Below, piece by piece: positions 10,975-46,065 of a DNA stretch of 64,000 nt. Within the stretch, counting starts at the first letter, position 1; every line of letters begins with the position of its first letter. The position numbers and the translations under genes are program-made. The notes below the pieces were generated by a model. It worked only from the letters and a program-made list of their open reading frames with translations, had not been told where the DNA came from and did not search any database. Source of the stretch: a virus; the IMG/VR virus record IMGVR_UViG_3300022745_000022, positions 30,295 through 94,294 of that record, one strand, 5' to 3'.

Positions 10975-13140
10975 ATGCCAAACTACAACGGTTACCGTCA
11001 ATCGAATTCCACGGAGATCCCACGCTATGTGGGCTCTGCTGTTCCAGAGATGTCCGTGGCCGCTCAGATGCTCCAGCAGCGTTATGATCAGTCACGCAAC
11101 TATGAGGACATGCTGGACCAGGGGATCAACTCCTCCACGTCCACTCCTCAGGATACGCAACTGCTGGAAGGACTCAAGAACGAGTACCGCGGGAAGATCA
11201 AGGAACGCGCCGGCAAGGGGGACTACGAGAACATGGTCCGTGAGACCGCTCGTGATGCCCGTGAGTTCGTGACCAAGTACCAGCCCATCGCCACCAATCA
11301 GAAGGCGGTCCAGGATTACTACACGGACCTCCAGGACAAAGTGGAGAAGAAGTTCATCTCCAAGGACACCGCTGACGCCCTGTACAATATGAGCGTGAGC
11401 TCTTACAAGGGTCTGCAGAAAGACCCGGTCACCGGACAATACACCAACCACTTCCGTGGCACCTCAGCAGCGGAGGACATCGACATGTCCAAGTGGGTGG
11501 ATGAAGCACTCAAGGGACTCAATCCCCAAACACTGGGTTCCACTGTTCGCAAGATCAATGGTGACTTCTACGAGGAGGTTGGAGGTAGGACAGTGAAGCT
11601 GAACATGGATCGTATCTGGCCTGCCCTACAAGCTGCCATGGGAAGTGACCCCAAGTTCCAGTCCTTCGCGCGCCAGCACGCAATGCTCTCCAGTTACCCT
11701 GCCCGCAACCTGAGCGAGGACACCGTGGCCAAGCATCCGGAATTGTACAACCAGATCAAGCAGATCCAGCAAGCCAATGGGATATCCTTCCAGGACGCTG
11801 CTCAGCAATACTACGGTGCCACTGCAGGTAATGACCTTATGAAGCAGGCATATACCATGGGTGCCAAGTACATCCGCGATGACCGTGAGTCCAGCTACAA
11901 GAACATGGGCATGACCGAGGTCGCGCAGCATGACTTGGCTGATAAGGAGAAGGACATCTTCGGCGGTATGATACCACTGAATCTTCCCGGTAGTAAGATG
12001 GACACTCCGGATAAGATCATGCAAGGCAGTACTGATCTGCAGACTGCCATGCAGAAAGCTTCAAATGATACAGCAGCACTACTACGTAACCTGAAGCAGG
12101 TAACCGGTACACGTCCTGACGGTACAAAATACGAGAAGTACATGGATGCTGATGGTGTGGAACAGACCGATAAAGTTGAAGCCAACCGCCTCACTGTTGC
12201 CCAGCTTGCCATGCAAAAGGCTGCAGTTGAAGAACGTGCGGCACGTCTACAGAAAGCAGTGGGGCTTACTCCAAAGGAGGTTGCACTTATGCAATCCCTG
12301 GATAAACAAGAAGACTGGAGTCCCGCTGCACTCACGGAGATACCAGGTATAAAAACCATGGGTATCCTCCATAAGATAGGGGATAAGCTGTCAGCATTGG
12401 GTGACAAGTTGAATCCACAATCGACTCGTAACTTGATACTGTCTGCCACAGGTCTTGATCAGAAATGGCGCAACTACGAGCAGGCCGTCAAAGAGGACTC
12501 CAAGAATTCCACCGTAGAAAGTGGTCTGTTCCAGTTCAATAGTATAGCCGCTAATAAGAGCATGAACAAGGTATTCACGGACCTGGTACTCAACCTAGAT
12601 AAAGACGGCATCAAGGCTGGTGCAGTTGGATTGCAGCATATGAATGGAGACAAGCTCGAATCTGATGACTATAAGAAGGTACAGGGAGAATCCTCTTTTG
12701 CTGGATGGGCTTTGGATCCTGGAAGCAATAAGATTAAACTGGTGTTCAAAGCCGGCCATATGGGTGAATCCAAAGGGGAGCTCAAAGGTGAACAGGGACT
12801 GTATATGATGGATGCTCCCCCTCAGGTGTACGAGTATCTGCGGAAAAGTGGACAATCGGAAGCTACCCATCTCGTGCTCTCTCAAGCGATCGGTTCACTG
12901 GAGAACTACGAGAATAAGAAGGTCACGCTTCCATTCCACGATGGCACAGTAACCGTGTCGCGGCGTACACCTTATGATCAGGAAAATCCAGATCCACGCG
13001 TAGTCGGTAATCAGAACCCGCAGTATGTGATGACCTTTGAATTCCCAGATGGTAAGCGTGAGCTACTTGCACAGGATAAGGATGAGGTCATCGCCAAGAT
13101 CATAGGTAACCACAACATCATAGAAAAAGCCAAAAAGTAA
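10975..13140 (+). CDS. Cargo/internal virion protein
   Basis: A 721-residue, mainly helical protein. The N-terminal 110 residues (IPRYVGSAVPEMSVAAQMLQ, then repeated helices with charged heptads) resemble N-termini of cargo proteins encoded just upstream of the RNA polymerase in crAss-like phages. The central part continues helical; the C-terminal quarter (about 500-721) is more mixed and ends in a basic helix. No catalytic residues are recognised. The stop overlaps the next start (TAATG). It probably forms part of the protein core ejected with the genome; this is family- and position-based inference. Confidence 0.6.
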   Translation: MPNYNGYRQSNSTEIPRYVGSAVPEMSVAAQMLQQRYDQSRNYEDMLDQGINSSTSTPQDTQLLEGLKNEYRGKIKERAGKGDYENMVRETARDAREFVTKYQPIATNQKAVQDYYTDLQDKVEKKFISKDTADALYNMSVSSYKGLQKDPVTGQYTNHFRGTSAAEDIDMSKWVDEALKGLNPQTLGSTVRKINGDFYEEVGGRTVKLNMDRIWPALQAAMGSDPKFQSFARQHAMLSSYPARNLSEDTVAKHPELYNQIKQIQQANGISFQDAAQQYYGATAGNDLMKQAYTMGAKYIRDDRESSYKNMGMTEVAQHDLADKEKDIFGGMIPLNLPGSKMDTPDKIMQGSTDLQTAMQKASNDTAALLRNLKQVTGTRPDGTKYEKYMDADGVEQTDKVEANRLTVAQLAMQKAAVEERAARLQKAVGLTPKEVALMQSLDKQEDWSPAALTEIPGIKTMGILHKIGDKLSALGDKLNPQSTRNLILSATGLDQKWRNYEQAVKEDSKNSTVESGLFQFNSIAANKSMNKVFTDLVLNLDKDGIKAGAVGLQHMNGDKLESDDYKKVQGESSFAGWALDPGSNKIKLVFKAGHMGESKGELKGEQGLYMMDAPPQVYEYLRKSGQSEATHLVLSQAIGSLENYENKKVTLPFHDGTVTVSRRTPYDQENPDPRVVGNQNPQYVMTFEFPDGKRELLAQDKDEVIAKIIGNHNIIEKAKK

Positions 13141-16100
13141 TGCCGGGCATTGAAGATCTGAAGGACTCCTACGACACCACTGGCCCCGGGCCTGGTGACT
13201 CCATGAAAGGTAAGCGTGGGTCTATCAATGCTATACAGGATATCCCCAAGAATCCTGGAATGGCCATGAGTGGTCAGATCAACTCAGGTCAGGACGCCAG
13301 CAAGTACCCGTTTCAGCTCAAAAGCGGTGCTGATAACGATCTGCTCCGTGCACAGAACCAGGGCTTCTGGAAGACGCTAGGACTCCGTGCAGCCAACTTT
13401 ATTCCCAACGTCCTCACCGGTACGGTAGAGACAGTGGGCTATGCAGGATCCCTCTTTGGAGAATGGGGTAAGGATCGCGACTATTCCAACGAGCTCACGC
13501 GCCAGATGCAAGCCTGGCATGACCCCTTCGGTGAGACCTACCGGGAACACCCCAATCAGACCTTCGACTTCACAGATAGCGCGTGGTGGCTGGACAACAT
13601 GTTCCAGCTCGGGGAATCTGTAGCACAGTTCGCACTTCCAGCCATGGGAGAAGCCAAGCTCTTCGAAGGGCTGGCTAAGACTGCGTCGATCGGTCGTAAG
13701 TCATTCAAGGCACTCTCCCTCGCAGGTGAAGTAGCGACTTCAGCTTCTCTCGCCTACGCTGAAGGTGCCATGAGCGGCTACCAGATCTACGACCAGGTGT
13801 ACAAAGCACGCTTCGATAAGCTTCGCTGGCAAGGCGTAGATGACGAGACTGCTCACCAGCAGGCCCGTGAGGATGCTTCCAATGCCGCGGCCACCACGGT
13901 GCAGATGAACGTGGCCATGAATACGCTACTCAACATGAGTGAGCTAGCGCCACTATTCAAGCATTCCGAAGCTCGCGTCCTGGATTATATGCGCCAGAAC
14001 GGTAAGCGCCTGGCGGGAGAGACTGCAGAACAGTTCGACAAGCGACTCCTTCAGGAAGCCACTGAAAGCGGGCTATTCAAGAATCGCAAGGGACTCACCA
14101 GTTACGCAGGTGTAGCCTTTCAGGAAGGCCTAGAGGAAGTCAATACCCAGTATGCAGAATACGAAGGACGCCGGCAAGGCATCGATGGCAAGAAGCGTGA
14201 CCTACTCAGTGCACTCACTGACTTCGGCCAAGCGCTTACGGATGTCTCCAACCAGGAAGGCATGCTCAACTTCGCCCTTGGCTCACTTGGTGGCTTGGGT
14301 AATGCCGTGGCAATCGACCATCTCCCCGTGAACCGCGTGGCTACAGTGGACGACCAGGGAAAGAAGACCTATCAGTTCTACACCGGTAAGGCCATAGAGG
14401 CTGACCGCACCCACGCCCAGTTCAAGAGTATCGCCGACGCCTTGGTCCATGACTACGGGTACATCGACAACAAGCTCCAGGAGCTACATGAAGCCACACT
14501 GAGGGATGATCACATCGGTGCTGAGAAGGCGCGACTGGATCTCTTCGACACATTGGCCATGCACAGCGTCAGCACCGGTGCAGGTAACAACCTCATCTCC
14601 ACCTTCAAGGAAATGCTGGGTACGCCCAACACGTCACGTCACGCAGAGTACCAGCAGCAGATGGAAGCGCTGGAGAAGCAGCTTCAACAGACCACTGACC
14701 CCGAAGAGGTCAAGGCCATTCAACAGGCCAAGTTCGACCTGATCCAGAAGATCAATGCCAATACGAGCGAGGCCATGGATAAGGGCTTGGCCATGAACTT
14801 GCAGGACCATTCCTATCAGCAGCGTGCACAACAGTCGATTGACGACATTGAGCACTATCAGAAGCTATTCGATAATGTCCATGCCAAGTTCAACACGGAC
14901 GAGGAGAAGGAGATCGGTGTACCGAACTATGTGTTTGCAGTCATGGCCGGTCAGTACCGTCTGAACAAGATGGTGGAGCGCGGTAACATGGATCTGGCCA
15001 AACTGAAGGCTGACCACATGCTGGCCTTCGCCGGCCTTCCTGCCAATACTATCGAGATGTACAACCGCGCGGCGGTGCAGTTCCAGGACACACTGGAAAC
15101 TCACCAGCGCCGCATCGGCCGCATCCAGGGGGACCTGAATCAGCTCCGCGCTGCACTGGAGAAGGGAGACGATGGGATGGTGAACAAGATCCTGGACAAG
15201 TATCGCCTGCTCGGCTACACTGGGGAGAACCTGTCTGCAAAGCTCATCGAGCGCATGCAGGACATGATCAACAACTCCAATGAGGCCATCAAGGACGCGC
15301 ACGCCAGCTTGGAGCGCGATACCGGTTATGCCAAGTGGAAGGAGAAACATCCTGACGGTAAGCTGGACGAGTACGGCCAGGAGCTCACCAAGAAGTTCGG
15401 CAGTTCAGCCGCCATCAAGGATATGGAAGGTCAGCTCATGACCATGCAGCAGATCGCAGAGAATAACAATGCCCGTGTGCACGACCTGCTCCATGACAGC
15501 GATTCCATCAAGGCTGTACAGCGCAAGCTCATCAAGAACATCAAGGACCAACACGCCATGCTAGAGGAAGAGACCAAAAGCAAGGCCGTGGAGAAAGAAC
15601 TCCAGGCCGCTGCTGAGCGTGCACATGTGGAGGGTAACATCAATGCCCTCAGTGATCAAGAGCGCACGCACCTCACGGAGCTCCACGAACACATGCAAGC
15701 CGAAGGTGTAGCACGTGCCGGTATGCAGAAGGCTCAGGAAGACCTGAACAAGCTCAACGTCACCTCGCACAAAGCCTGGAACGTACCCTGGCAGGCAAAG
15801 CATGCACTGGCCAATCGTGAACTGTCCAAGCACAGTAAGAACCTGGCCGTGGCTCAGCAGCGCCAGGAGGAGATCCGTGCCAAGCTGGACGAGATCCGCA
15901 CGGCCAAGATGGACCAGGGAACGCCAGCCGTGGCGCCAGTGGCCGCTCAAGAGAGAGCACAACCAGAACAAACTCAACCTGTCGATAATGGGACAACTGA
16001 TCAATCTACCGAACCATCCACCGAAGCAGCGCAACCGGCTGCACCTGTGGTGGAATCACCGGCTACAGGACCTGGGGTGGTGGCTAATGAGACTGGCGGA

Positions 16101-18284
16101 CAAGCTCCTGCGGCTCCGCTGACCACTGACTCAGAGCGGAAGGCCATGAAGTACCTCACTCAACTTGACCGGTTACCTGCTGAGGTCATCAAGGCATTCG
16201 AACAGGTAGAGACTGCACTGAAGAGTGGCCTGCCCCTGGACATGGACGCGTTCTTCCGCCGGGGGGATATCGTCGAGGCCCTGGAACAGAACCTGGTCGC
16301 CAGATTCCTACTCAAGCGTTCACTGGAGCTGCTAAAGGACTACGTGGACTCACTTCCCAAGACTGAGCGGCCGGTAGATACCAGCGCTCCTGCAGAGGAG
16401 CAAGTGGAGCAGGAACAGGCTCAGCCGGAAGAGACTGTCATCCAGCCGGTGGCCATGATCCCCTCAGAACCCCCTACCCGAAACGCCACTGACATTGAAG
16501 TGGAGGGCGATTACCGCGAGCACGTCGGTAAGAAGCGCATCAGCGCGCTGACCATGGCCAACAACACCTTGGAGACCACTGACTACACGGATAACAAGGG
16601 CAATTACCGCATTGCTGGTCGTGACCTCAATCCAAATACGGATCCTGATGTTACTGACCCGAAGAAGCTACTGGCCGGTACCAAGGTCACGCTGGAGGTG
16701 GATACCTCCTACGATGGCCTGACCTGGGACCCCACTACTCCCAATACCAAGATCAAGGTCACCTATGCTGACTTCGCAGACGAGAAAGGTAACGTGACGG
16801 ACATCGACAATGTCCCGATCCGTATCCTGGGCCCGGATGGCAAGGTAAAAGGCTACGTGCCCACGATCGATTTTCTCACCCGTCGCTTTCCTGGAGCTAC
16901 AGGTCCTGAAGGCTTTCGCAACATCGTAGCCGTGCACACGATCCCGGATGGGAACGGCGGCACCATAGAGGTGGATAACCTCACCAAGCAGATTAATATC
17001 CTACGCAGCTTGCGTAACCGTATCGTGAAGAACGGCAAGATCGAGACCACACTGGGAGAGAAAGGTGCCGGCACGGTGATCCGTAATGTCACCGACCAGG
17101 GAGATGGTACTTTCTATCCCACCCGTGGTATCGCTGTGTCCAAGTCCAAGCCAGCAACGAGCCTACTCCCGGATTACAAGAACCTGAAGCTTGTCATCAT
17201 ACAAGATGGTCTGGCCTACACTTCTTTCGGACGTGACGTACCTGTGGCCAACAATCCTGCCGAACTCAAGCAACGCCATAACACACCCGCGGTACTGTTA
17301 CCTGGCGCCAATGGCCAGGGTATCGCTGAGCCGCTGTACATGCCCATGATCAACAGCCACCTGGACTTCAGCTCCATCGAGCGTGCCATCACACTATACC
17401 TCAGCCAGGACCAGAACAAAGAGGAGATCGCTGCGTTCTTCAAAGAGAGTGGGCTCAACCTGCGCAACTCCAAGGATCTGCGCAAGTACATCAACCGTCA
17501 GTTCACCTACATGGAATCCTTCGATGCCAGTCACACGGCATTGAATGCCAAGGTGAGTCCCAAGTTCCTGTTCAACGTGACAGAGCCTACGGACAAGCTG
17601 GCCAGTATCATGGTAGGCTGGTCCGCCAGTGGCCAACGCCCGGAGTTCGCCTCCCTGGCAAACGGAGAGCTCAGTGAGAACTTCAAGAACATCCTACGCA
17701 ATGGTCTGGTGACTCGCTTCCGCAATGTGAACTTCGACGACGGCATCAATACCAGCGGTGAATTCACAGAGCATTACTACTCGGTGGATCCCCGCACTAA
17801 GAAGGGTTCCTGGAAGACCAGGAAGTTCAGCAACTATAACGAGTACATCCTGACCAATGCAGAGACCTATGCGTACGGTCGTAACCAGATCGGTGACCGG
17901 TACGTGTACACGGCCAATCCCAGCATCCCATTCGGAGAGGAGCTAAAGCCGGCAACCGACCCGGGTCCCGTAACCGTGACCAGCCTTAAGGAAGAGGGCC
18001 CTGCATCAGCCACTGTCCCCGCGCGTGTGGATATCAATTCCGCGGACGCTGCGGATCTGCTGGATAGTATGGGCCATTTCTACCCGGGAACCGCTTCCAC
18101 AACGAGCTACATAGAGCCATCAGAAAATATGCGCCCCCTGTCGATCGATGTATTGCAGGAATTATCTAACTTCACTCCGCCCGGCAAGCACAACGGCCTT
18201 TCGGTGGATGATGCGATGAAGCAGCTCCTGCGAAATGGCATAGGGTATCTTGCTGAAGGGTATAACCCGTTCATCAAATGCTGA
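13140..18284 (+). CDS. Large internal virion/cargo protein (1714 residues)
   Basis: The second largest gene in the window. Residues 1-240 include hydrophobic helices (e.g. LGLRAANFIPNVLTGTVETV, AGEVATSASLAYAEGAMSGY) that may interact with membrane. Residues about 400-950 are long coiled-coil-like helices, 940-1010 are a Pro/Glu/Gln-rich linker, and 1110-1600 are a mixed domain with the pattern KDLRKYINRQFTYMESF. The C-terminus carries VDINSADAADLLD, similar to a helix-hairpin-helix (about 1625-1637), and ends GYNPFIKC, an ending I remember from crAss-like giant virion proteins. Probably packaged and ejected with the DNA. No catalytic site is recognised. Contains no DxDxD polymerase motif. Confidence 0.65.
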   Translation: MPGIEDLKDSYDTTGPGPGDSMKGKRGSINAIQDIPKNPGMAMSGQINSGQDASKYPFQLKSGADNDLLRAQNQGFWKTLGLRAANFIPNVLTGTVETVGYAGSLFGEWGKDRDYSNELTRQMQAWHDPFGETYREHPNQTFDFTDSAWWLDNMFQLGESVAQFALPAMGEAKLFEGLAKTASIGRKSFKALSLAGEVATSASLAYAEGAMSGYQIYDQVYKARFDKLRWQGVDDETAHQQAREDASNAAATTVQMNVAMNTLLNMSELAPLFKHSEARVLDYMRQNGKRLAGETAEQFDKRLLQEATESGLFKNRKGLTSYAGVAFQEGLEEVNTQYAEYEGRRQGIDGKKRDLLSALTDFGQALTDVSNQEGMLNFALGSLGGLGNAVAIDHLPVNRVATVDDQGKKTYQFYTGKAIEADRTHAQFKSIADALVHDYGYIDNKLQELHEATLRDDHIGAEKARLDLFDTLAMHSVSTGAGNNLISTFKEMLGTPNTSRHAEYQQQMEALEKQLQQTTDPEEVKAIQQAKFDLIQKINANTSEAMDKGLAMNLQDHSYQQRAQQSIDDIEHYQKLFDNVHAKFNTDEEKEIGVPNYVFAVMAGQYRLNKMVERGNMDLAKLKADHMLAFAGLPANTIEMYNRAAVQFQDTLETHQRRIGRIQGDLNQLRAALEKGDDGMVNKILDKYRLLGYTGENLSAKLIERMQDMINNSNEAIKDAHASLERDTGYAKWKEKHPDGKLDEYGQELTKKFGSSAAIKDMEGQLMTMQQIAENNNARVHDLLHDSDSIKAVQRKLIKNIKDQHAMLEEETKSKAVEKELQAAAERAHVEGNINALSDQERTHLTELHEHMQAEGVARAGMQKAQEDLNKLNVTSHKAWNVPWQAKHALANRELSKHSKNLAVAQQRQEEIRAKLDEIRTAKMDQGTPAVAPVAAQERAQPEQTQPVDNGTTDQSTEPSTEAAQPAAPVVESPATGPGVVANETGGQAPAAPLTTDSERKAMKYLTQLDRLPAEVIKAFEQVETALKSGLPLDMDAFFRRGDIVEALEQNLVARFLLKRSLELLKDYVDSLPKTERPVDTSAPAEEQVEQEQAQPEETVIQPVAMIPSEPPTRNATDIEVEGDYREHVGKKRISALTMANNTLETTDYTDNKGNYRIAGRDLNPNTDPDVTDPKKLLAGTKVTLEVDTSYDGLTWDPTTPNTKIKVTYADFADEKGNVTDIDNVPIRILGPDGKVKGYVPTIDFLTRRFPGATGPEGFRNIVAVHTIPDGNGGTIEVDNLTKQINILRSLRNRIVKNGKIETTLGEKGAGTVIRNVTDQGDGTFYPTRGIAVSKSKPATSLLPDYKNLKLVIIQDGLAYTSFGRDVPVANNPAELKQRHNTPAVLLPGANGQGIAEPLYMPMINSHLDFSSIERAITLYLSQDQNKEEIAAFFKESGLNLRNSKDLRKYINRQFTYMESFDASHTALNAKVSPKFLFNVTEPTDKLASIMVGWSASGQRPEFASLANGELSENFKNILRNGLVTRFRNVNFDDGINTSGEFTEHYYSVDPRTKKGSWKTRKFSNYNEYILTNAETYAYGRNQIGDRYVYTANPSIPFGEELKPATDPGPVTVTSLKEEGPASATVPARVDINSADAADLLDSMGHFYPGTASTTSYIEPSENMRPLSIDVLQELSNFTPPGKHNGLSVDDAMKQLLRNGIGYLAEGYNPFIKC

Positions 18285-18285
18285 C

Positions 18286-19896: not shown

Positions 19897-19905
19897 TCCA
19901 CTCAC

Positions 19906-21572: not shown

Positions 21573-21583
21573 CACATTGAACA

Positions 21584-22948: not shown

Positions 22949-22951
22949 GCC

Positions 22952-23494
22952 ATGGGATACACTTTTGACGGCGCCAACAAGATCATCACACTGACCTCAG
23001 GTACCACGAGCATTTCTGTTCGTGATCTCTGGAGCCGGTGGTATGACTGGTGGGTGCTGTCGAACAACAGCAAATACCCACTGGCTTTCACCAATCTTGG
23101 TGGTGACACGATCGACGCCAGTGCCGGTACATTCATTCCGATCTACCTATTTCTGCAAAACGGCTGGCGTATCCGACCACAGGAAGCCAACCACACCCTA
23201 AACGTAGGAGATGGCATCCTACTTGTGGCTGGTGGCGGGGATCCGTTCTTGTCCACACTAGGGGCATTCACAGTGCGCATCAACTACCAACAACCAGTGC
23301 AGGCCATCAGCTTCGGTTCAGGTGGTGGAGGTATCTCCGCCGAGTTGGCACTCATGCTGGAACAATTCCTGACCATTGAAGGCTTCAAGGACGGAGTCGT
23401 GGCAGAAAACTCGGCTTCACTGCGCAGGGCAGGATCGGTACAGTTACAGATCAGCGGATACGGCACAGGCTTTACAACCGTCGAGAAAATATGA
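22952..23494 (+). CDS. Virion protein, head-surface/fibre family
   Basis: 180 residues. The signature SVRDLWSRWYDWWVLSNNSK, then YPLAF, GGDTIDASAGTFIPIYLFL, NGWRIRPQEANHTL and GGGDPF, is a family I recognise with fair certainty from many phages, often as an N-terminal domain of fibre or adaptor proteins. The C-terminal 60 residues contain a helix (AELALMLEQFLTIEGF) and a Gly-rich link. It overlaps the next start (ATGA). Confidence 0.6.
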   Translation: MGYTFDGANKIITLTSGTTSISVRDLWSRWYDWWVLSNNSKYPLAFTNLGGDTIDASAGTFIPIYLFLQNGWRIRPQEANHTLNVGDGILLVAGGGDPFLSTLGAFTVRINYQQPVQAISFGSGGGGISAELALMLEQFLTIEGFKDGVVAENSASLRRAGSVQLQISGYGTGFTTVEKI

Positions 23495-23724
23495 GGCTGA
23501 GCTTTGCCATAGGAGGATATCTGGAACCGGTGACCACACCACTACGGTTCGTACACCATGGCTACCTGTATGAAGAGATCGATGCCCCTGAGACAGTAGT
23601 CAAACTCCCGATCGTATTCCCGGTGAGCCTTGAAGTATATGACATACCGATACAGAAGCGGAAAGTGGACGATGGTGAAATCTTACTATTGATTAACGCA
23701 TTCATGAAAACACAGACACGATGA
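23491..23724 (+). CDS. Small hypothetical protein before the RNA polymerase gene
   Basis: 77 residues, coupled at both ends by ATGA overlaps (starts 23491, stop shared with the ATG at 23721). It is mostly beta with a short charged helix at the end. Its position suggests it closes the fibre/decoration module. Function unknown. Confidence 0.55.
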   Translation: MRLSFAIGGYLEPVTTPLRFVHHGYLYEEIDAPETVVKLPIVFPVSLEVYDIPIQKRKVDDGEILLLINAFMKTQTR

Positions 23725-26700
23725 GCCTGGCAAATTGTTTGGAAAAAGTAGACAAAAAGATCGCCAGTCCTTTGCTGGAAAAGTGGCAGAAGCTGGTCGA
23801 CGATAATATGGAGGAAGTCAAAGCTAACCGCCAGATACTTCGCGAGTATGGTGAGGAGCTGAACTCCAGGCTCAACGAGGTGCGCAGCAGAGCGAACCTC
23901 AAGTATGCTAATCCTACTTACACTTCACAGAGCGCGGCCAGTATCAACAAGTCCTACGATGCTAAGCTTCGCAAGCTCTCCCCGACCATGGTCACCGTGG
24001 AAGGTGAACAGCTCATGACCTATGAGCCCGTAGAGGAACACTCCTCGGAAGGCAAGATCGACCTGCACTTCGCCCCGGACGACATGTTCTCCGGCGTGAA
24101 CACCACCGACGGTGTGTATGACACACTTGGCGAGCCCAACGAGAATCAGGTCATCATGCAGGAGATCGCTGGTCAGCCTGAGAAGAAGATGAACTTCTCC
24201 AATAGAATGCCTGCGGAGCAAGTCACCAAGAATATCCAGGAGTTCTACGAGATGGCTAAGGAGCAACCCAACAAGGAGTTCCTGGTTCCCTATACTGCAG
24301 AATTTCCCAACCGCGCAGGGATGACCGGCTATAGCCCACGGGAGCTGGCCAATCTCTTCGGCGCATTCCCCATTCCCACCAACGTCATCTTCCAGCGTCA
24401 GTTCCGTGGCCTCATAGAGAACGACCCGGGACGCTTCATCGGCAATGAGATCCAACTTGTCGACCAGGGCACTAGGGAGCCACTGAAGGTGGACCAGGTC
24501 GCACTGGACAAGGCCCGCCGGCAGATGTTCATCGAGATCCGTGATGCCGATGGTAACAAGACCGGCAAGTTCTTCTCTTCCCAGCAGCAACTGGAAGCTA
24601 CCGATGCGGTGATCGCTGAGGTGGCCAAGCGCGTCATCCGTACTGAGGGCAGGCCGGATGCCTCGCAGATCTTCGAGGATATTCGCAAGCAATTCATCAT
24701 GCTACTGGACAGGGCCTACACACCAATGGCCGCTGGTACGCGTGTCTTCAGTGGTGACCTGGATGTGTTCCCCCACATCACACAGGAAATGGCCAAGGCA
24801 TACAAGCTCAACATGGAGCAGGTCCTGAACTCCTTCGAGGATGTGAAACGTGAGGCCGTACGCCGCATGTCCGTTCAAGGCATCAAGGTGCGTACGTTCG
24901 ATGACTCAGGTACACCGGAGGAACTGTTCAGCCTGGAAGAGGGCAAAGGCCTGGAGAACTTCGACGATGTGCACTTTGCACTGGATCCCAAAGCCACGGC
25001 CTCCACGAAGATGAAGCTGTTCATGAGCACCGTGGAGAATACGGAAGAGGGCATGAAGAAGCGACCGCGTCCCATCTCCATACCACTGAAGGATGAATAC
25101 CGCAAGCAGATCGTCGACGGTACACGTGACCGTACGGTGCGCACTCCTGAGCAGATCAGGGAACTCCGTCTGAATGTCGGAGAGGAGTACCAGGACTCCA
25201 GCGTGTTCAAGATCGGCGATCAGATCTACGTGGCCCGCGCGGTCAAGAGGCTCACGGCTCAAGAGGCCACTGAATACAATGAGAGTCCGCTGCGTGAAGA
25301 CTACCAAGCCAAGGAAGGAGACACCATGGTCACCATCAAGCCTTACGTGGAGGAGCATGGCCTGCGCTCAGTGCCCTCTTTCATCGGCACCTCCACACTG
25401 GCCAACTTCGACTCCCTCTACGAGGACGTCACCGGTCTACTGGCTGGTAACAAGCCCTCCTTCACCAACTACATGGCTATCCTGGAGAACTCCACCAAGC
25501 CTGCCGTGCGCAAGCTTGCCGAGAAATTGCAGGATGGTAGCACGCCCACTCAGCTCCGCAAGGAGTTCGTGTCGGTGATGACCAAGGCATACACCCAGTA
25601 TGCTATGCTCCAGTTCAGCATCCAGAAAGATGGTGCAGAGTCCTTCATCTATAATGCCAACCTATACTCCATCCGCAACACCATCATCAAGGGATGGCAG
25701 GAAGCGCAGAAAGCATCCCCCATCGTCACCAAGGATGGGGCCGGCAACTTGCTCCTGAATAAGGAAGTGCTGGCTGAACTCCGCAACGACTACACCACTG
25801 TCCGCGATCTTCATACACGTATCACCAATGGTGATGTCGCTGCTTCGAAAGCCTTTAAGCTCGCTTCAGAGAACCTGGCCAAGAAGATGCTCACGCTCAA
25901 TGGTGTGGTGCTCAGCGACGCAGCCTTCGAGGATATGTTCAAGGGCATCGAGCGCTACACCATGGGCACGGACTTTACCGGCTCCTGGTTCCGTCAGTGG
26001 GCGATGACCAAGCAGGGCCAGCCGAACGGTATATTCTCCGCTTTCATGGAGCGCCTACTGGGCATGGATACCGATACGGTGACCAATGCCATCGAGCAGA
26101 ACAACCCGCTGTACATGGAGCCCAAGACGATGAAGATCATCGCCAAGGTGGCCACCAAGTATCAGGAGGTTCTGTACAACAGCTCGCACAAGAATGTCAA
26201 CGGCGATAACATCTGGGATTACACCCTGAACACATACCTCTCCGATAGGCATGCAGATCTCATTGGTGATGACCCCACCTATCGGAATAAGCTCAAGGAC
26301 ACCTACCTGGCACAGAACAACTGGCTGCTGAAGATCCTGGAGGAGAAGCCAGCCATGCGCGACAACATGGAGCTCTACTACCTGGAGGCCATGAAGAAGC
26401 AGTACGGTACGGCATCTGCGGAGCGCAGCGATATGAGTGACCGTGACCAACTGTTCATGGCCCTGCACCTGATGATGAACCGCGGTGCCGCACAGATGCA
26501 CATGGTAGCGCTTACACACTCTGACAAGACGCGTACCCCCGTGTACATGCGTATGCCACGCACGCAGGTGGCCACTGCAGAACAGATCTCCATGGAACTC
26601 GTCGACCGCTTGCGGTCAGTGGTGTATGGAGAGTTCGACCGCATTGCCGGCCACAAGGATGTGAAGTTCCGCCAGCAGCAGTATGAGAAAGGCAAGGGCA

Positions 26701-29700
26701 TGTTCTACTTCCTACCGGAGTTCAACTACGAAAACATGCAGCAGTTGATGAAGGAAGGTGTCATCACGGAAGCGGAGTTCGGCAATATCTGGATCACCAA
26801 GGACCAATTAAACGTGCCGGCCAAGACCACTTCCGATGCAAAGGCCGTGGTGGATAAGCTCCTATATCGCTTCATCCAGAACGAGACGGCCGTAACGCGT
26901 GCCAAGCTCGTGGATGCTGGATTGGCTAGTCCCAAGGAGGGCACCCATAAGTTCAACACGGACTACCTGAGCAAGATCATGGGTGCGCAAACCAGTAGCC
27001 GTATCATAAAGGATCGTGAGAACACTACTTATACCATCCACGGAAAGTCCGTGCTCCAGGATGGACGTCCGGTTACGGCGGAGATGTTCCTGAACCATGC
27101 CCTGGATTTCGTAGCCATGGACTATGCCATGAATAGCTTTCTGATCAACACGGCCATGTCCACGCTCATCATGGGTGACCCGGCCCAGGTGTTCAAGACT
27201 GACCTGGAAACCACACTCAAGGAATACCAAAAGCGTCTCGCTGGCCCGATCGCTCCGGGCAAAGTGGCCGAGTGGGCAAAGCCCACGTATAAGGCCATCG
27301 TACTGGACGACATCAAGCTTGGTCTGCAGTACACCGGTCTCAACGCATACTTCAAAGGAGTCAACATCACCGACGCCCAGGAATATGTCACTGTCCAGGA
27401 ACACCTGGATACTCTCCACACTTACGGCCAGATCACAGACCAGATGTACAAGGAAATGGTGGCTGTCATCTCTCCTGCCGGAGACTACAAGTTCACCGGT
27501 GCACAGATGAAGATCCTCATGAGCATCACCAAGCCGGTGTACTACGGTTCGCAGAACGTGGAGAACAAGGCCCTTCTGCACGACTACATTAAGAGCTCCG
27601 CCCTGCCACTGTACCCGGGTTTCACCCAGGGCAACAGCAAGCTGGACTTGCTCCGTCGCCAGATGGAGCTCAGTGGTATCAGCAGGGCACACTTCCTGTC
27701 TGCACAGAAAGAGGGTGCTCCGGTACCGGCCGATGTGTTCGGTGACGAGAGTCTCCTGAACGACGGTCCCTGGGATGTGAACAAGACTCCAGGCGTCATC
27801 ACGCTGAGTCGTGAGAACTGGCGCATCCAGCAAGACGTGCCACACGATCCGGACAAGAACAAGATCAAGGTCTTCTCGCAGTTCAATAAGCTCTTCGTGG
27901 CTGACCTTCCTGCCGGCATCTCGGTAGAGACGATGGATGGCCGCACACTCACGCGGGACCAGATCCGCGAAGAGAAGGAGAAGCTTCGCGTCAACCTACT
28001 GACCAAGAACCTGAACGAGTTCATGGAGGATGTTGGTGTCGAGCAGACTGAGGATGGCTTCGTGCTGCGCAACAAGGCCAAGCTGGTCAAGCGCATGCAG
28101 GAGATGGCCCGTGATAAAGGCTACTCGGCCAATGAGCTGCTTCCCATCACGACCATGGAGGAAGGCATGCCCATGGCTCCCCTATTCTTCACTTCACTGG
28201 CCCAGCCCATGCACAATATCATGATGAGCATGGTGGACAAGGTCAACGAGGTCAAGGTCATGGGTAAGTCTTACGTGCAAGCTTCTTCCGCCGGCATCGA
28301 ACAGTTCAGCACCAGCATCCCTGAAGGCGTACGCTGGGTGAAGGGTCGTACCAAAGGTGAGCTACAGTTCATGAAGAAGAATGCCGATGGGTCAGTGGCT
28401 GCTGCAGAGGTCCTCATTCCGTTCCACTTCTTCAACAATGGCCAGAAGATGTCCCTCGATGCATTCCTGGATGAGAACGGTGAAGTGGATACCGACAAAC
28501 TCCCGGCGAACCTGCTGGAGATGATCGGTATTCGTATCCCTACCTCCAAGCACAACTCAGCACTTCCCATTCGCATTGCCGGCTTCCTGCCGGAGAATAT
28601 GGGAGATACCATCATCGTTCCTCCTGGCATCACCACGCAGATGGGTTCCGACTTTGACGTGGATAAACTCTATGTGTACCGCCGGCCGTACAGCATGCAG
28701 GAGGGTAAGCTCTCATCGACCACTGACGACGAAGCGCAGTACTTCGACCTACAGTGGAAGGTGATGACTTCCCCCGACATGTACGACACCGTCCTCAGTC
28801 CACTAGACAAAGAGGACCTCAAGGATGAAGCCAAGCTGGCCTCCAAGAAAGCTGAAGAGGGGAACTTCTTCGGTGGCGTACGTCAGCTCTCTGACTTCAT
28901 CTCCCAAAAGGATGCCAAGAGCCTCATCGGCTTCAGTGCACTCACCAACACACTGCTCGCTTCCATCCAGCACTTGAATATCCGCTACGGTCATGTCGAG
29001 CTGGGAGAAGACGAGAATGGCAAGAAGACCAGGGAGTTGGTGAATGACTACATCACCACCTTCGCCAACCTGGAACTCGGCAAGCTCTCCGGTTACGGCA
29101 AGTCCTCCTACAAGGGAGAGAACCGTACCAAGATGGACAATATCGGCATCATGATGAGTGAATTCCTGGACCACTCCAAGAATAGGACCATTGATAAGAT
29201 CAACCTCACCATGCATACGTACGCCGCAGCTTCAGCGCTCATGAGCCTGGAGGATGGTATGGAGAATGCACTCCCGCTGACCTATGCTTCCCGATTACTA
29301 CAGCAACCCATCATACGTGAGTTCAATTCCCGCATGAGTCGCGGCGCTGACATGCTGGAAGGTTACACTCCCGGCCTGAAGGAGAACGTGTTCGACAACC
29401 TGTTCAAGTCCCTGGTTAAGAAGGGAGCCAACATGGAAGAGGCTGAGAAGATGTCCTTCACGGACACCCAGCTCCAGTATCTACTGGATCATCCTCGTAC
29501 AGACGCTTCCTACTACACCATGCAGTATGCATTGCTCTCCGCCTTCCAGAAACTGGATGAGATCGGGCAGCGCATGAGTGAGATCAGTAGTCTGGTGAAC
29601 CAGGACGTGAAAGGCACCGGTGGCGACCTGTTTACAGCCATGGATAAACTCTACAAGGCTGACAATGTCCTCGGTGACAACATCCTGCTCAACGCCAGTG

Positions 29701-32700
29701 ACATCCTCGCCGGCGAGCGTGGTTGGCTTTTCAACAACATTAACGGCCTGGCGGTGGATACCTTCCAGGACTTCCTTCCGCACAAGGAGATCTACTTCAG
29801 TGCACTCGCCGACATCGCCAAGATCACCGGCCGCAGTACCGTGACCAAGCTGAGTAATGACGTCAAGAAAAGCGTGGTCAAAAGTCTGCAGTCCTTCGTG
29901 TACAGCGGTATGTCTTCCATGCGCCTCGGCGATCCCACTGCGGAACGTGCCCGCCTCCTCTATGACACCACTGAAGGACCGTCGCTCGCCAAGCGCGTTC
30001 TGGAAGCCAAGTACGACTGGGGAAAGAACAACTACTTCCTCTCCCGCCTGGTGACCGATATCAAGAATGCCAACGAGCCGGCCCAGGTATCCTTCCTGGC
30101 GGCTAAGGCATCGCGGGTCGATGACCAGGAAAACGTGAAGGGTTGGCTGGAACTCCTGACCAGCGAGAATCCAGTGGCCGTTCGGCTAGGTGAGGACCTG
30201 CTCAAATATGCCTATCTCACCGGTGGTGTGCAGGACGCTTCCAACTTCGTTAAGTACGCTCCCTTCGGCTACCTCATGGGCATCGGCTGGTTCCCCGAAC
30301 TCCGGGAAGCCTACGACAACCTGCATAATATCCTCCAGGGTCCATTCATCGAACAGTGGATCCGTCACAACCCGGAGAAGACCATCCAGTTCTCCAACAA
30401 GTTCAAGGAGAGTGGCAGGGAGATCGAAGGCATTCCTGAGCGCGTGGAGCTCCCGCTTCCCAGTACCGTGGAAGCCACACACCCGGTGATGAAGCTCATC
30501 CCTAAGGGAGAGAACGAGCTTCCCCCTTACCTGTCTTACCGTGCACCTGACGGCCGGGTGATCCTGTACCAGCAGACCGCTGCCGGCGTCTTCACACGCA
30601 TCGACACCCTCGGTGACAAGACCACTGATGAGTACAACCGTACGAACACTCGTGCACGCTCCATCATCCCCAGTAACCGAGCACTCGCCGACTGGACTGT
30701 GGATAGGAAAGCCAGCGCACGGGAAGCTTCTCTGATTGACCTCATCATGGAGCACACACTCCCGAAGCACTTCGTGGAAGCAGGACTCTCCAAGGTCACC
30801 ACCACAGGTGAGGAGCTGCAAAAGCAGGTCCTGCCCAACCTGGTCAACAATGGGAAGATAGATCCTGCAGCTTCTGCCATCTTCAAAGAGGTCATACGCT
30901 CCAAGGCTCTGGACCTTCCCCCGGTGATATCCACCTCACACCTGACGGCTAGTATCCCTACATCCTACACTGGTGTGTACGTAGGCGACAAGTTCAACCT
31001 CATCGGCTTGAACCCTGCCAAGATCAATTCCCGCAGCTTCCTGTCTGAAGTGCTCGCACATGAACTCATGCACTGGATGACAACGAACGTGCTCAAGCGC
31101 ACATCAGGTACCGAGAAGGTCAAGACCGCACGGGCCAACCTGCAACGCGCCTTCGAAGAAGCTGCAGCACTGCGTGATGAGTTCGGCTACCAGATGCAGG
31201 ACATCGATGAGTTCGTAGTAGCAGCAACCACTGTCCCCGAATTCATGAAGGCACTAAACCAGATCCAGTCCAGTGAGAAGGTCTCCCTGCTCAGTAAAGT
31301 GCTGGAGTTCATCGCTAACATGTGGCATGCCGCAGCAGAGCTCATGGGTATGAAGGTGAACCGTGATTCCTTACTCGACCTGGTGTTCACCAACGTGGCC
31401 CTGCTTCGCAACAACGATCGTGGCCTACGCGTCTTGACGCCAGTGGACTACGAATACAATGGTCAGACGGTACGCATCGGGGTTGATACCAAGGGTAAGG
31501 CCCTCAAGGTCGATCATGGCTTCATGGAAGACGCCCCAGAGCCGCAGCGCCAGTATGAGATCTCCAGGATCCTCTCCGAGTACAATCGCTCAGGTGCGGA
31601 CATCGCTGATTCCCTGTTCGATATGGGTGGTGGACGCATTGCCAACCAGTTCCAGCGAGAACAGCTCTCCAAGCTGCAGGACTTCATTCAAGATCCCACA
31701 CCGGGAGTCTATATCCTGGAAGGCGGCAAGGGCATCGGTAAGACCACTATGGTACAGCATCTACAACAGGTCAACCCCGACCTGAACTTCGCCTGGAACA
31801 ACGAGAACATGAGTGGCTTCCATCCAGAGACCACTGACATCCTGGTACTGGACAACACAGTGACTGAGTCCATGCATCCCAAGACAATCATCATCCGGGA
31901 TACCGATGAGGTCTCCGAGGAGCGTTTCCAGGAACCACCGAACGCACGCTTCTACGGTGGCGCTTCGACATTCGCGGATGCACGTTCCATCGGCCCGTGG
32001 ACATACAGGACACCGGAGGAAGCTGCACAGGCTGCTCAAGAGGCCTGGGATTCCCTGCGCCTACTCAGTGACCTCAAGGACAACAAGCTGCTGTTCTACG
32101 GAGAGTCCAATGCGCCGTTCGAACAACCGCAACCCATGAGCCCACTGATCTCCAAGATGGTCAGCAAGCTGCAGGACCAACGGCACACTGTGCTCAATAG
32201 CTTGGATAGCCCGGAGGTCAAGAACGACAGAAAGAAGCGGGCTGCGAAGATCGTGCAGCTCAAGAAGATAGACGATGACATCGACCTGATGAAGAAGCAG
32301 AACAACCTGCGCGCCATCTCGACAGTCGGTGAACGTCAGCTCAACTGGATCGCGGACTCCCTGGAGAAAGGAACACTCTCCCCTGCAGAGATCACCACGG
32401 CCTGGAGGGTGACCGATACATGGCGTAACCTGCTGGAGTATCTCTATGGTGGCGATACCACACTAGCTATTGGCCAGGAGATAGATCCTGACCTGGCCAA
32501 GGTATCCTCCCGTGCAGTGACCATGCAGCAAACCATGCTCAAGAAGAACCTGATACCAGCCATGATGGAGATCAGTGAAGGTAGGCTCAAGGCCATCGAC
32601 TTCGGCTCTACACTCAAGGATATGGATATGGGTACACACTTGACCATGTCACTGAACCGTGCCGGTGCACAGCTCGGTCAGGAGGTGGACCTCCTGCTCA

Positions 32701-35378
32701 AGAACGCGGCCCGTCGCAAAGAGGATGAGATCAACCGGTTGATCAAGCGGCTCAACGCTTTGGACAAGCTCATGGGTAAGGATAAGCAGGCCATCATGAG
32801 TAAGATGCTCGCCAATGGCCATGACCTCTCTCTTATCCAGAACTACACCACCAAGTGGTTCAAGGACAGGGCTGGACTCTGGATGGAACGCCAGGGTAAA
32901 CTCAAGCGTATCGGTGAGCTCAAAGGTGACCCGCAATCCATCGCCAAGAACATCAAACGCATCTGGGATAACTTCTGGGCCAAGGCAGACACCATCGGTG
33001 TGTACGCCAACGTCAATGAGCTGTTCGAAGAGAACGGTGACCTGAAGACGGACATCTCTGCTGAGCGTAGCAGGCTTGCTGAAGCACTGGGCAGTGAAGA
33101 GCATGCGGATGCCATGATCAACGAAGCACAGAGTCTATACCACCAGTTCCTGGAGGATCGTGAAGCTTACTATGAGCAGATCGATTCTCGTAAGGATGAA
33201 GGTGTCATCACCGATATCGAAGCAGATGCCGAGAAGCTGGAGTATGATAAGGCGCATTCTCCACGCAGGTTCTTCGCTAAGGAGAACGGGTTCAGTACCG
33301 GTGATCGTTATGCGGTCATCAAACCCCGCGCATCCTCCACGCAGTACCACGATAGCGTGTTCAAGGAGATCATGAATGACGCCCGCATGAAGCAGGTGTA
33401 TACGGAGATCAGCTCCATCCTGCGGGAAATGAAAGGCTACCTGCCACAGTACATCAAGTCCAACCTCCATGAGAACTTTGTGCCAGTGGTCTATCGTAAC
33501 CTGCTCACGGACATGAGCACCAAGGAATACCTGCAATCCATTGGTCGCCAGCAAGTGGACTCCCTCACCGCAACTGAATACGAGGAGGGTCGCCAGAAGG
33601 CCACTGACATCCCTATACGCTTCGTGAACTACGACGTCAAGAAGGATGCCGAGTATTCCCGCGACCTGATGCGCACCACGGAGCTCTTCGGAATGATGGC
33701 CCTGCATTACAAGCACATGTCCGCCATCAAGGATGCCACGGAGATCGGCATCTCCATCACCAAGGAGATCGACCGGATGCGCCGTGACGGTACCGCGCCT
33801 GGTGCCGTACTCACCAACCTGGTGAAGAGCATGGAACATGCCCGCGACCACATCATGTACAAGAACGCGCGTATGCTCGAGGGCGGACTGGGAGTGAAGC
33901 TCTACAGTCCCAATCCCATTACCAACTACCGCAAGAGCAAGGAGGTTGATAAGCTCAGGGCCAAGCGCGCAGACCTGGAGAAGGAATACCTTGATCCGCC
34001 ACCGGACCGTACGCTGATGGATATCCGCAAGGACATCGACGCTGTGGACGTGGAGCTGAGCAAGTTTGAAGGCCAGCAACTATACCTGTCCAAGATAGGC
34101 GACAAGCTCATCGGCATCAACCAGTTGAAGGCCCTCGGCTTCAACCCGCTGTCCGGCTTCGCCAACCTTTCCTTCGGCATCGCTTCACTGACCACTTATG
34201 CCAACGGTCGTCAGGACTTCACGATGAAGGAAGCTATGCGCGCCATGAACATCATGAACAGTGCGCTGGGCAAGTGGTTCACCTTCGGTAATGTGAACTC
34301 CGAGACTGCGCAGAAGATCTATGCTCTCATGGAGAACACAGGTATGATGAGTGAGATCGTGGACACGCAGTATGGGGATTCGAACCTGCACAGCAGTAAG
34401 AAGAAGTGGAAGCGCGTGATCGATCCGTACGCATTGCTCCGTTCCTCTGACTACTACATGAAGGGCGCCATCCTAGTGGCCACCATGCTCCATCACCAGG
34501 TGGATGTGTCCGAAGGGGGTGTATCCAAGAGGGTCTCCTTGTGGGACGCCTATGACCATGAAGGCAACTGGAAGTTCGATGAGCAGAAAGGCTGGACGGA
34601 AGAGCGCCCCGAGGAACGCTCCGAATGGGAGAAGTTCCGCAACCGCTCGCTTCGCGTAAGTCAGATCATCATGGGTAACATGGATAGGAACTCCCCGAAG
34701 TTCATGAACAAGTACATCCTGGGTAGACTCATTGGTCAGTTCCGCGCTTCTTGGCTTCCGGAAGGTTGGGCCGCACGCTTCGAGGATGAGAAGAACGACG
34801 TACAGCTTGGGCGTACCATCAAGGGTAGGTACCGCACGTACGCGGATATCGGACTGGGAGGTTCAGTGACCATCATGCTTCGTCAGCTACTGGGTTCCAT
34901 TAGCAAACAGGATCCCTTCACCGACGTACGCCTCAAAGGTGGTACGCGTGCAGGTGAACTGGTAGGAGATTCTCCAGTGGACATGGAGAACATGCGTAGG
35001 AACTTCACCGGTCTCATGTGGACGTTGTCCATGATGGCCGCAGTGCTCATGCTGAAAGCAGCCATGCCCGACGATGATGACGATTACGGTAAGGAAAGTC
35101 TCATGCTCGTGTTAAACATGATGAACCGCCTGAACCAGGACTTGCAGTTCTACGGTTCTCCGGATGTGGCCAACAACCTGATCCGTAACGCTGTGCCAGC
35201 TTTCGATGTGGTCAACGATTACCTACGTGCAGTGTCCGCCACCAAGAAAGCACTGCTCATGGATGACTACGATTGGGACCAGGCTGCGTTGAAATGGACC
35301 AAGGCCACCCCGTACCTGAACAACATCAACAAATTCAAGTACTGGAGCACGCACGACATCAGCACCATTAGCAGATAA
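23721..35378 (+). CDS. Giant virion RNA polymerase polyprotein with metalloprotease-like motif and P-loop
   Basis: 3885 residues. Seen: a SLOG-like pattern (FLVPYTAEF, GYSPRELANLF, about 187-212); an ASCH-like stretch (KQIVDGTRDRTVR, then FKIGDQIYVA, about 458-510); the sequence IRIPTSKHNSALPIRIAGF followed by D1644-F-D-V-D1648-K, the DxDxD metal-binding signature of crAss-like/YonO-like RNA polymerases; an HELMH zinc motif (2447-2451); a P-loop GGKGIGKT (2668-2675) with LVLDN as possible Walker B; long helices (2850-3450); GFNPLSGFANLSFGIAS (about 3473); and one hydrophobic segment (about 3762-3783). Known: such polymerases are packaged in the virion and transcribe early genes after ejection. 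Inferred: the protease motif may process the chain. In better known relatives these parts are often spread over several genes. Confidence 0.85.
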   Translation: MSLANCLEKVDKKIASPLLEKWQKLVDDNMEEVKANRQILREYGEELNSRLNEVRSRANLKYANPTYTSQSAASINKSYDAKLRKLSPTMVTVEGEQLMTYEPVEEHSSEGKIDLHFAPDDMFSGVNTTDGVYDTLGEPNENQVIMQEIAGQPEKKMNFSNRMPAEQVTKNIQEFYEMAKEQPNKEFLVPYTAEFPNRAGMTGYSPRELANLFGAFPIPTNVIFQRQFRGLIENDPGRFIGNEIQLVDQGTREPLKVDQVALDKARRQMFIEIRDADGNKTGKFFSSQQQLEATDAVIAEVAKRVIRTEGRPDASQIFEDIRKQFIMLLDRAYTPMAAGTRVFSGDLDVFPHITQEMAKAYKLNMEQVLNSFEDVKREAVRRMSVQGIKVRTFDDSGTPEELFSLEEGKGLENFDDVHFALDPKATASTKMKLFMSTVENTEEGMKKRPRPISIPLKDEYRKQIVDGTRDRTVRTPEQIRELRLNVGEEYQDSSVFKIGDQIYVARAVKRLTAQEATEYNESPLREDYQAKEGDTMVTIKPYVEEHGLRSVPSFIGTSTLANFDSLYEDVTGLLAGNKPSFTNYMAILENSTKPAVRKLAEKLQDGSTPTQLRKEFVSVMTKAYTQYAMLQFSIQKDGAESFIYNANLYSIRNTIIKGWQEAQKASPIVTKDGAGNLLLNKEVLAELRNDYTTVRDLHTRITNGDVAASKAFKLASENLAKKMLTLNGVVLSDAAFEDMFKGIERYTMGTDFTGSWFRQWAMTKQGQPNGIFSAFMERLLGMDTDTVTNAIEQNNPLYMEPKTMKIIAKVATKYQEVLYNSSHKNVNGDNIWDYTLNTYLSDRHADLIGDDPTYRNKLKDTYLAQNNWLLKILEEKPAMRDNMELYYLEAMKKQYGTASAERSDMSDRDQLFMALHLMMNRGAAQMHMVALTHSDKTRTPVYMRMPRTQVATAEQISMELVDRLRSVVYGEFDRIAGHKDVKFRQQQYEKGKGMFYFLPEFNYENMQQLMKEGVITEAEFGNIWITKDQLNVPAKTTSDAKAVVDKLLYRFIQNETAVTRAKLVDAGLASPKEGTHKFNTDYLSKIMGAQTSSRIIKDRENTTYTIHGKSVLQDGRPVTAEMFLNHALDFVAMDYAMNSFLINTAMSTLIMGDPAQVFKTDLETTLKEYQKRLAGPIAPGKVAEWAKPTYKAIVLDDIKLGLQYTGLNAYFKGVNITDAQEYVTVQEHLDTLHTYGQITDQMYKEMVAVISPAGDYKFTGAQMKILMSITKPVYYGSQNVENKALLHDYIKSSALPLYPGFTQGNSKLDLLRRQMELSGISRAHFLSAQKEGAPVPADVFGDESLLNDGPWDVNKTPGVITLSRENWRIQQDVPHDPDKNKIKVFSQFNKLFVADLPAGISVETMDGRTLTRDQIREEKEKLRVNLLTKNLNEFMEDVGVEQTEDGFVLRNKAKLVKRMQEMARDKGYSANELLPITTMEEGMPMAPLFFTSLAQPMHNIMMSMVDKVNEVKVMGKSYVQASSAGIEQFSTSIPEGVRWVKGRTKGELQFMKKNADGSVAAAEVLIPFHFFNNGQKMSLDAFLDENGEVDTDKLPANLLEMIGIRIPTSKHNSALPIRIAGFLPENMGDTIIVPPGITTQMGSDFDVDKLYVYRRPYSMQEGKLSSTTDDEAQYFDLQWKVMTSPDMYDTVLSPLDKEDLKDEAKLASKKAEEGNFFGGVRQLSDFISQKDAKSLIGFSALTNTLLASIQHLNIRYGHVELGEDENGKKTRELVNDYITTFANLELGKLSGYGKSSYKGENRTKMDNIGIMMSEFLDHSKNRTIDKINLTMHTYAAASALMSLEDGMENALPLTYASRLLQQPIIREFNSRMSRGADMLEGYTPGLKENVFDNLFKSLVKKGANMEEAEKMSFTDTQLQYLLDHPRTDASYYTMQYALLSAFQKLDEIGQRMSEISSLVNQDVKGTGGDLFTAMDKLYKADNVLGDNILLNASDILAGERGWLFNNINGLAVDTFQDFLPHKEIYFSALADIAKITGRSTVTKLSNDVKKSVVKSLQSFVYSGMSSMRLGDPTAERARLLYDTTEGPSLAKRVLEAKYDWGKNNYFLSRLVTDIKNANEPAQVSFLAAKASRVDDQENVKGWLELLTSENPVAVRLGEDLLKYAYLTGGVQDASNFVKYAPFGYLMGIGWFPELREAYDNLHNILQGPFIEQWIRHNPEKTIQFSNKFKESGREIEGIPERVELPLPSTVEATHPVMKLIPKGENELPPYLSYRAPDGRVILYQQTAAGVFTRIDTLGDKTTDEYNRTNTRARSIIPSNRALADWTVDRKASAREASLIDLIMEHTLPKHFVEAGLSKVTTTGEELQKQVLPNLVNNGKIDPAASAIFKEVIRSKALDLPPVISTSHLTASIPTSYTGVYVGDKFNLIGLNPAKINSRSFLSEVLAHELMHWMTTNVLKRTSGTEKVKTARANLQRAFEEAAALRDEFGYQMQDIDEFVVAATTVPEFMKALNQIQSSEKVSLLSKVLEFIANMWHAAAELMGMKVNRDSLLDLVFTNVALLRNNDRGLRVLTPVDYEYNGQTVRIGVDTKGKALKVDHGFMEDAPEPQRQYEISRILSEYNRSGADIADSLFDMGGGRIANQFQREQLSKLQDFIQDPTPGVYILEGGKGIGKTTMVQHLQQVNPDLNFAWNNENMSGFHPETTDILVLDNTVTESMHPKTIIIRDTDEVSEERFQEPPNARFYGGASTFADARSIGPWTYRTPEEAAQAAQEAWDSLRLLSDLKDNKLLFYGESNAPFEQPQPMSPLISKMVSKLQDQRHTVLNSLDSPEVKNDRKKRAAKIVQLKKIDDDIDLMKKQNNLRAISTVGERQLNWIADSLEKGTLSPAEITTAWRVTDTWRNLLEYLYGGDTTLAIGQEIDPDLAKVSSRAVTMQQTMLKKNLIPAMMEISEGRLKAIDFGSTLKDMDMGTHLTMSLNRAGAQLGQEVDLLLKNAARRKEDEINRLIKRLNALDKLMGKDKQAIMSKMLANGHDLSLIQNYTTKWFKDRAGLWMERQGKLKRIGELKGDPQSIAKNIKRIWDNFWAKADTIGVYANVNELFEENGDLKTDISAERSRLAEALGSEEHADAMINEAQSLYHQFLEDREAYYEQIDSRKDEGVITDIEADAEKLEYDKAHSPRRFFAKENGFSTGDRYAVIKPRASSTQYHDSVFKEIMNDARMKQVYTEISSILREMKGYLPQYIKSNLHENFVPVVYRNLLTDMSTKEYLQSIGRQQVDSLTATEYEEGRQKATDIPIRFVNYDVKKDAEYSRDLMRTTELFGMMALHYKHMSAIKDATEIGISITKEIDRMRRDGTAPGAVLTNLVKSMEHARDHIMYKNARMLEGGLGVKLYSPNPITNYRKSKEVDKLRAKRADLEKEYLDPPPDRTLMDIRKDIDAVDVELSKFEGQQLYLSKIGDKLIGINQLKALGFNPLSGFANLSFGIASLTTYANGRQDFTMKEAMRAMNIMNSALGKWFTFGNVNSETAQKIYALMENTGMMSEIVDTQYGDSNLHSSKKKWKRVIDPYALLRSSDYYMKGAILVATMLHHQVDVSEGGVSKRVSLWDAYDHEGNWKFDEQKGWTEERPEERSEWEKFRNRSLRVSQIIMGNMDRNSPKFMNKYILGRLIGQFRASWLPEGWAARFEDEKNDVQLGRTIKGRYRTYADIGLGGSVTIMLRQLLGSISKQDPFTDVRLKGGTRAGELVGDSPVDMENMRRNFTGLMWTLSMMAAVLMLKAAMPDDDDDYGKESLMLVLNMMNRLNQDLQFYGSPDVANNLIRNAVPAFDVVNDYLRAVSATKKALLMDDYDWDQAALKWTKATPYLNNINKFKYWSTHDISTISR

Positions 35379-37423: not shown

Positions 37424-37436
37424 CAACAGAAATACC

Positions 37437-46064: not shown

Positions 46065-46065
46065 T

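Follow-up and report, generated by a model that had tools for sequence, protein, structure and literature searches.

A giant crAss-like virion RNA polymerase fused to a gp65-like protein carries a zincin-type domain related by sequence to those of N4 and phiKMV/PhiM1 ejection proteins

Giant fused RNA polymerases are a hallmark of crAss-like phages, with sizes of up to ~6000 amino acids (aa) (PMC10136315). They are common in the group, examples being those of crAss002 (4245 aa) and cr118 (4946 aa). The polymerase of phage phi14:2, gp66, is a virion polymerase which transcribes the early genes (PMC7886860, PMC10136315). Another giant virion RNA polymerase is gp50 of the Schitoviridae phage N4, which consists of an N-terminal domain, a T7-type polymerase, a C1 domain with an HExxH motif (2124-2375) and a C2 domain (PMC12633501). 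It is packaged uncut, and the region around its zincin has been reported to be needed for encapsidation (PMC5512222). The zincin of N4-like polymerases was already described in 2017, in work on the polyvalent proteins of phages and conjugative elements, which are large injected proteins built around zincin MPTase domains (PMC5512222). That paper includes N4-like polymerases but leaves crAss-like ones unmentioned, the word 'crAss' being absent from its text. The tetrameric ejection proteins phiKMV gp37 and PhiM1 gp48 have no polymerase; they are ~1300 aa long and have an annotated endolysin or transglycosylase domain. Pressure within the head is considered the main force behind ejection (PMC10172136). 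How very large folded enzymes pass through the narrow phage tail, and what role the extra domains of giant virion polymerases play, is an open question (N4: PMC12633501; crAss001: PMC10172136).

Here we describe a polymerase gene of this kind in a stretch of 64,000 nucleotides (the window), which corresponds to bases 30295-94294 of a virus record with a total of 94,294 bases. The open frame starts with ATG and runs for 3885 codons with zero internal stops. A preliminary description of the DNA had reported a single frame of this length with the motifs DFDVD, HELMH and GGKGIGKT (residues 2668-2675) and a hydrophobic segment near the C-terminus. All three motifs are found at the residues reported, and the segment is the most hydrophobic 19-residue stretch of the chain (Table 1). 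The record belongs to a crAss-like genome, as it contains a muzzle gene scoring above the Pfam cut-off for crAss_MUZ. The small mobile domain in the polymerase N-terminus, PHROG 2072, also occurs in proteins of Vibrio and Shewanella phages and in crAss-like cr50_1.

Table 1. Features of the polymerase gene and of two upstream genes (window positions; residues refer to the 3885-aa chain)
Feature	Residues	Position	Strand	Basis or remark
Crassvirus muzzle-like protein		4618..8088	+	Pfam crAss_MUZ above cut-off
1714-aa upstream protein		13140..18284	+	Related to polymerase-associated crAss002 gp32 (E 1.7e-8)
Gene of the giant virion RNA polymerase (gp66-like and gp65-like parts fused)	3885 aa	23721..35378	+	Open frame; homology
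Small N-terminal domain	156-234	24186..24422	+	PHROG 2072
RNA polymerase region	~525-2315	25293..30665	+	BLAST matches to FpV4 gp32 and phi14:2 gp66
DFDVD catalytic metal-binding motif	1644-1648	28650..28664	+
Zincin-type metallopeptidase-like domain	core ~2382-2541	30864..31343	+
HELMH zinc site	2447-2451	31059..31073	+
E2497, presumed third zinc ligand	2497	31209..31211	+	E in at least 90% of relatives
Truncated SF1 helicase fragment	~2641-2685	31641..31775	+	Walker A GGKGIGKT at 31722-31745
gp65-like C-terminal module	2861-3885	32301..35375	+	Separate gene in most relatives
Hydrophobic segment	3764-3782	35010..35066	+

Homology places the chain among the crAss-like two-barrel virion RNA polymerases, here joined to a gp65-like protein. 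A phmmer search against all PDB chains returned 6vr4, the phi14:2 virion RNA polymerase gp66, as its sole match (E=3.9e-23), over residues 1187-1666. The alignment runs on both sides of the catalytic motif, with DFDVD placed onto the DFDID of gp66 through GSDFDVDK, a segment that was also aligned with six relatives. Searches with tblastn found 137 phage records, chiefly crAss-like and Flavobacterium phages, every one below 60% identity. The nearest named relative of the polymerase is gp32 of the Flavobacterium phage FpV4 (Fipvunavirus), at 29% over 594 aa. These comparisons make it a new and diverged representative of an established polymerase family. The preliminary assignment to the crAss-like virion polymerases is therefore supported by the match to 6vr4, the 137 phage records and the muzzle gene in the same genome. 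A barrel fold around residues 1600-1660, whose absence had been named beforehand as grounds against the assignment, is indicated at the sequence level, because the stretch around DFDVD has its homologue in a two-barrel polymerase of solved structure. An N4-type (T7-type) polymerase domain was considered for this chain and rejected, the polymerase matching 6vr4 only. Polymerases of the IMG/VR relatives range from ~2000 to >5600 aa, thus a length of 3885 aa is not unusual.

In many relatives (e.g. L012, L013, L023, L042 and L028) the counterpart of the C-terminal 1025 residues is the following gene, encoded on its own; in others (L008-L010, L020 and L022) it is a fused C-terminus. A profile of this gp65-like family also matches phi14:2 gp65, FpV4 gp33, cr85 gp54, cr118 gp15 and the C-terminus of crAss002 gp33. 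The gene can therefore be read, by homology, as a fusion of gp66 and gp65. The hydrophobic segment lies ~120-140 residues before the end in most gp65-like proteins, a conserved position. The chain differs from phi14:2, where a homologous polymerase (~24% identity) and gp65 are encoded by two separate genes and there is no helicase fragment; gp65 carries the same C-terminal module and has a zincin at its N-terminal side (HEIMH 245). In FpV4 the zincin follows directly after the polymerase, as it does here (HEVIH 4065), but the gp65-like part is a separate gene (gp33), there is no P-loop, and gp32 has an extra N-terminal part which is related to the upstream protein. Among 74 loci, zincin and polymerase share a frame with gp65 separate in 30, polymerase, zincin and gp65 are all fused in 12, and the zincin lies in the next frame in 4, the rest having other arrangements.

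The HELMH motif, proposed earlier as a zinc motif, is a genuine zincin-type site. It is the only HExxH in the chain. Pfam makes no zincin call on the 3885-aa protein, with SprT-like and M48 below cut-off, and the domain was therefore established via its relatives. Across these, 76 HExxH motifs were observed against 5.15 expected from composition-preserving shuffles. Of 75 non-redundant loci, 60 have the motif in one of two narrow windows of offset from DFDxD, 46 at +500 to +1400 aa and 16 at -1600 to -1200 aa. These proportions describe the sample only, which comprises the 80 loci closest to the alignment used as query, out of 503 confirmed relatives. The invariant H, E and H in the aligned downstream sequences are uninformative, since those sequences were picked by the HExxH motif. 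The independent signal comes from the offset statistics and from E2497-F2498, which are conserved in at least 90% of sequences at a mean column identity of 16%. In the AlphaFold2 model, the core is predicted as a helix, a three-stranded sheet, the HExxH helix and a glutamate helix, with pLDDT ~76-92 in most of it; this is the order expected of the polyvalent-protein MPTases (described in PMC5512222). Foldseek gave no significant match for the model in the PDB, and 15 matches at E<=1e-3 in BFVD, down to 6e-6. The named BFVD matches are phage proteins including phi14:2 gp65, several being annotated as polyvalent, internal or structural.

A second zincin type lies upstream, with the pattern YHEAFHxVF and a downstream EE, ~1400 aa before DFDxD (L004, L043, L047, L051, L069, L076-L079, L084, L085 and others). 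The two types are weakly related by profile (86.6% probability) and largely mutually exclusive, with the downstream type only in 48 loci, the upstream type only in 17 and both in 2. On the polymerase tree, loci with the upstream type and loci with the downstream type separate for the most part into two large groups. No zincin is recognisable in some crAss-like phages (for example cr85 and a locus resembling crAss001), therefore the domain is not essential to the whole crAss-like group.

By sequence kinship the downstream zincin belongs to the module found in the N4 virion RNA polymerase and in tetrameric ejection proteins of the phiKMV/PhiM1 type. A zincin profile built without this protein finds it at 1.8e-23, and matches the virion RNA polymerase of the Schitoviridae phage PG11 at 6e-25. 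It also matches phiKMV gp37, at 2.8e-19; a profile including this protein matches N4 gp50 at 4.2e-12 (filters off, small database). In a search of all PDB chains, phage ejection proteins take the first six places (1.6e-14 to 4e-8): an internal virion protein of phiKMV size (9sfn, 1.6e-14), the tetrameric ejection protein of PhiM1 (8vb2, 4e-9; PMC11440229) and four constructs of the N4 virion RNA polymerase, among them 9pnr (2.6e-8 to 4e-8). Jannalysin, myroilysin and other known zincins rank below them, at 0.004-0.04. Profile-profile comparison with Schitoviridae zincins gave 97.5%. The Vibrio phage PG11 polymerase (L088) has two tandem zincins, with HExxH at 2187 and 2424.

N4 gp50 also resembles our chain in its order of N-terminal part, polymerase, HExxH domain and large C-terminal part. 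However, the crAss polymerase core profile gave no match to N4 gp50 with its unrelated T7-type polymerase, and the gp65-like profile found no homology in the N4 C-terminal domain. Only the zincin is therefore shared, and not the polymerase or the C-terminal module. In phiKMV gp37 and PhiM1 gp48, too, the homologous zincin sits in the largest ejection protein. In the literature covered, which takes in the sources on the phi14:2 polymerase only in part, we found no description of a zincin or metallopeptidase in crAss-like polymerases, or of its kinship with the zincins of phiKMV/PhiM1 and N4 ejection proteins. Relative to that literature, what appears new is the zincin as a conserved module of crAss-like polymerases, akin by its profile matches to those of N4 and phiKMV/PhiM1.

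In the chain the two-barrel polymerase comes first and the putative zincin peptidase directly after it, followed by the SF1 helicase fragment and the gp65-like module with its hydrophobic segment near the end. By analogy with phi14:2 and N4, we infer that the virion would contain the chain and release it through the tail along with the DNA, after which the polymerase would start early transcription in the host. The gene would then encode the largest ejected virion protein. We think there is about an even chance that its zincin is a zinc peptidase acting on another protein, of the ejectosome or the host, during or after ejection. Such a peptidase would work in trans, with an envelope, ejectosome or host protein as the first choice of substrate, and would not be a processing enzyme that acts before packaging. 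This reading is supported by the kinship with phage ejection proteins, by retention of the zincin in 30 loci that already encode gp65 apart and by the uncut packaging of the N4 polymerase. The relatives without the first histidine, the crAss-like phages with no recognisable zincin and the Foldseek result against the PDB weigh against it.

A rival reading is that of a self-processing polyprotein, in which the zincin would cut its own chain between the polymerase and the gp65-like module, before packaging or after ejection, to yield the two proteins seen in relatives. The zincin does lie where polymerase and gp65 meet; many relatives have a gene boundary here, in front of the zincin or behind it. 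DdrB of phage P1, which carries such a domain, is processed before packaging (PMC5512222). On the other hand, 30 relatives keep the zincin with gp65 already separate, therefore cutting between polymerase and gp65 cannot be its conserved role, and the N4 polymerase, as noted above, is packaged whole. Self-cleavage at the polymerase/cargo junction might still take place in this particular phage; as a conserved function it falls away, and we consider self-processing unlikely overall.

It is also conceivable, though in our judgement improbable, that the domain is a zincin-like fold which holds zinc, or merely serves packaging or threading, and cleaves nothing. A structural role is allowed by the need for the N4 zincin region in encapsidation. 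A motif-free profile scan found three downstream domains, of ~50 of the downstream type, that lack the first histidine (EExxH or KExxH) and keep the fold. These lie in L054 (frame residues 4072-4367, KEAVH), L081 (797-1108, EEMIH) and L035 (1493-1769, EEIIH), and retain the downstream EF motif. A purely structural part would not be expected to show HExxH far above chance at a fixed place, conservation of the third glutamate at so low a mean identity, or loss of the histidine in so few domains.

The P-loop had been proposed to supply energy that lets the chain unfold or mature, powering the protease, and this idea has to be corrected. Walker A and a zincin do occur in one chain; no segment of it other than GGKGIGKT fits the Walker A pattern [AG]x4GK[ST]. 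However, sequence comparison identifies the P-loop as a truncated fragment of an SF1B helicase (Dda/RecD/Pif1-type). The Walker A with its Q-motif lead (ANQFQ...GGKGIGKT) is common to relatives (profile domain E=8.3e-6), and sixteen loci including this one have GxxGxGK[ST] in the polymerase frame. In the relatives that were scanned with Pfam, the P-loop belongs to a complete SF1 helicase (AAA_30 at values as low as 4e-29, UvrD_C_2, PIF1), and the best solved matches to the helicase profile include Dda, RecD and Pif1. In our protein solely the Q-motif/Walker A part aligns to the helicase of relatives; motif II DE(A/V/S)SM, motif III GDxxQ and the downstream SHKSQGS (motif V) were sought in the region and are all absent. 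The structure model of the region has a mean pLDDT of 53.9 and is confident only at ~2628-2687. An AAA+ unfoldase was considered and rejected, with only P-loop matches below cut-off and a low-confidence fold past Walker A. The helicase is also patchy, being present in 17 of 74 loci with 13 changes on the tree, and differs even between the close sisters L012 and L013. An ATP-driven step is therefore very improbable, since the helicase is truncated, low in confidence past Walker A and often gained or lost, and a complete SF1 helicase is encoded elsewhere in the genome.

Three unrelated phage groups thus have the same zincin in their largest ejected protein, which gives the question of delivery a concrete active site and may point to a common step in how such viruses deliver their contents. 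We infer a peptidase activity, and tentatively suggest that in short-tailed phages the largest ejection protein relies on one zincin module as a general working part. On at least two occasions the module would have become attached to unrelated RNA polymerases (two-barrel crAss-like and T7-type N4-like), and it would also have been added to lysozyme-type ejection proteins; its task would be to act as a peptidase at the ejection stage, on a protein of the host or the ejectosome.

Other genes of the window were also recorded. The stretch that separates the upstream polymerase-associated gene from the polymerase gene (18250-23494, +) encodes a block of proteins without a Pfam match. Directly 3′ of the polymerase (36782-48587, +) is a tail-fibre-like block with collagen repeats and PKD repeats with DUF4832, which also encodes a pectate-lyase-like and GDSL-lipase protein. 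On the early-gene side of the crAss-like genome, a 905-aa protein (52793-55510, -) has an HSP90/gyrase-type ATPase domain (HATPase_c_3, 1.2e-7). The complete SF1 helicase (62028-63506, -) is RecD/Pif1-like (AAA_30 5e-23, UvrD_C_2) and distinct from the helicase fragment of the polymerase.
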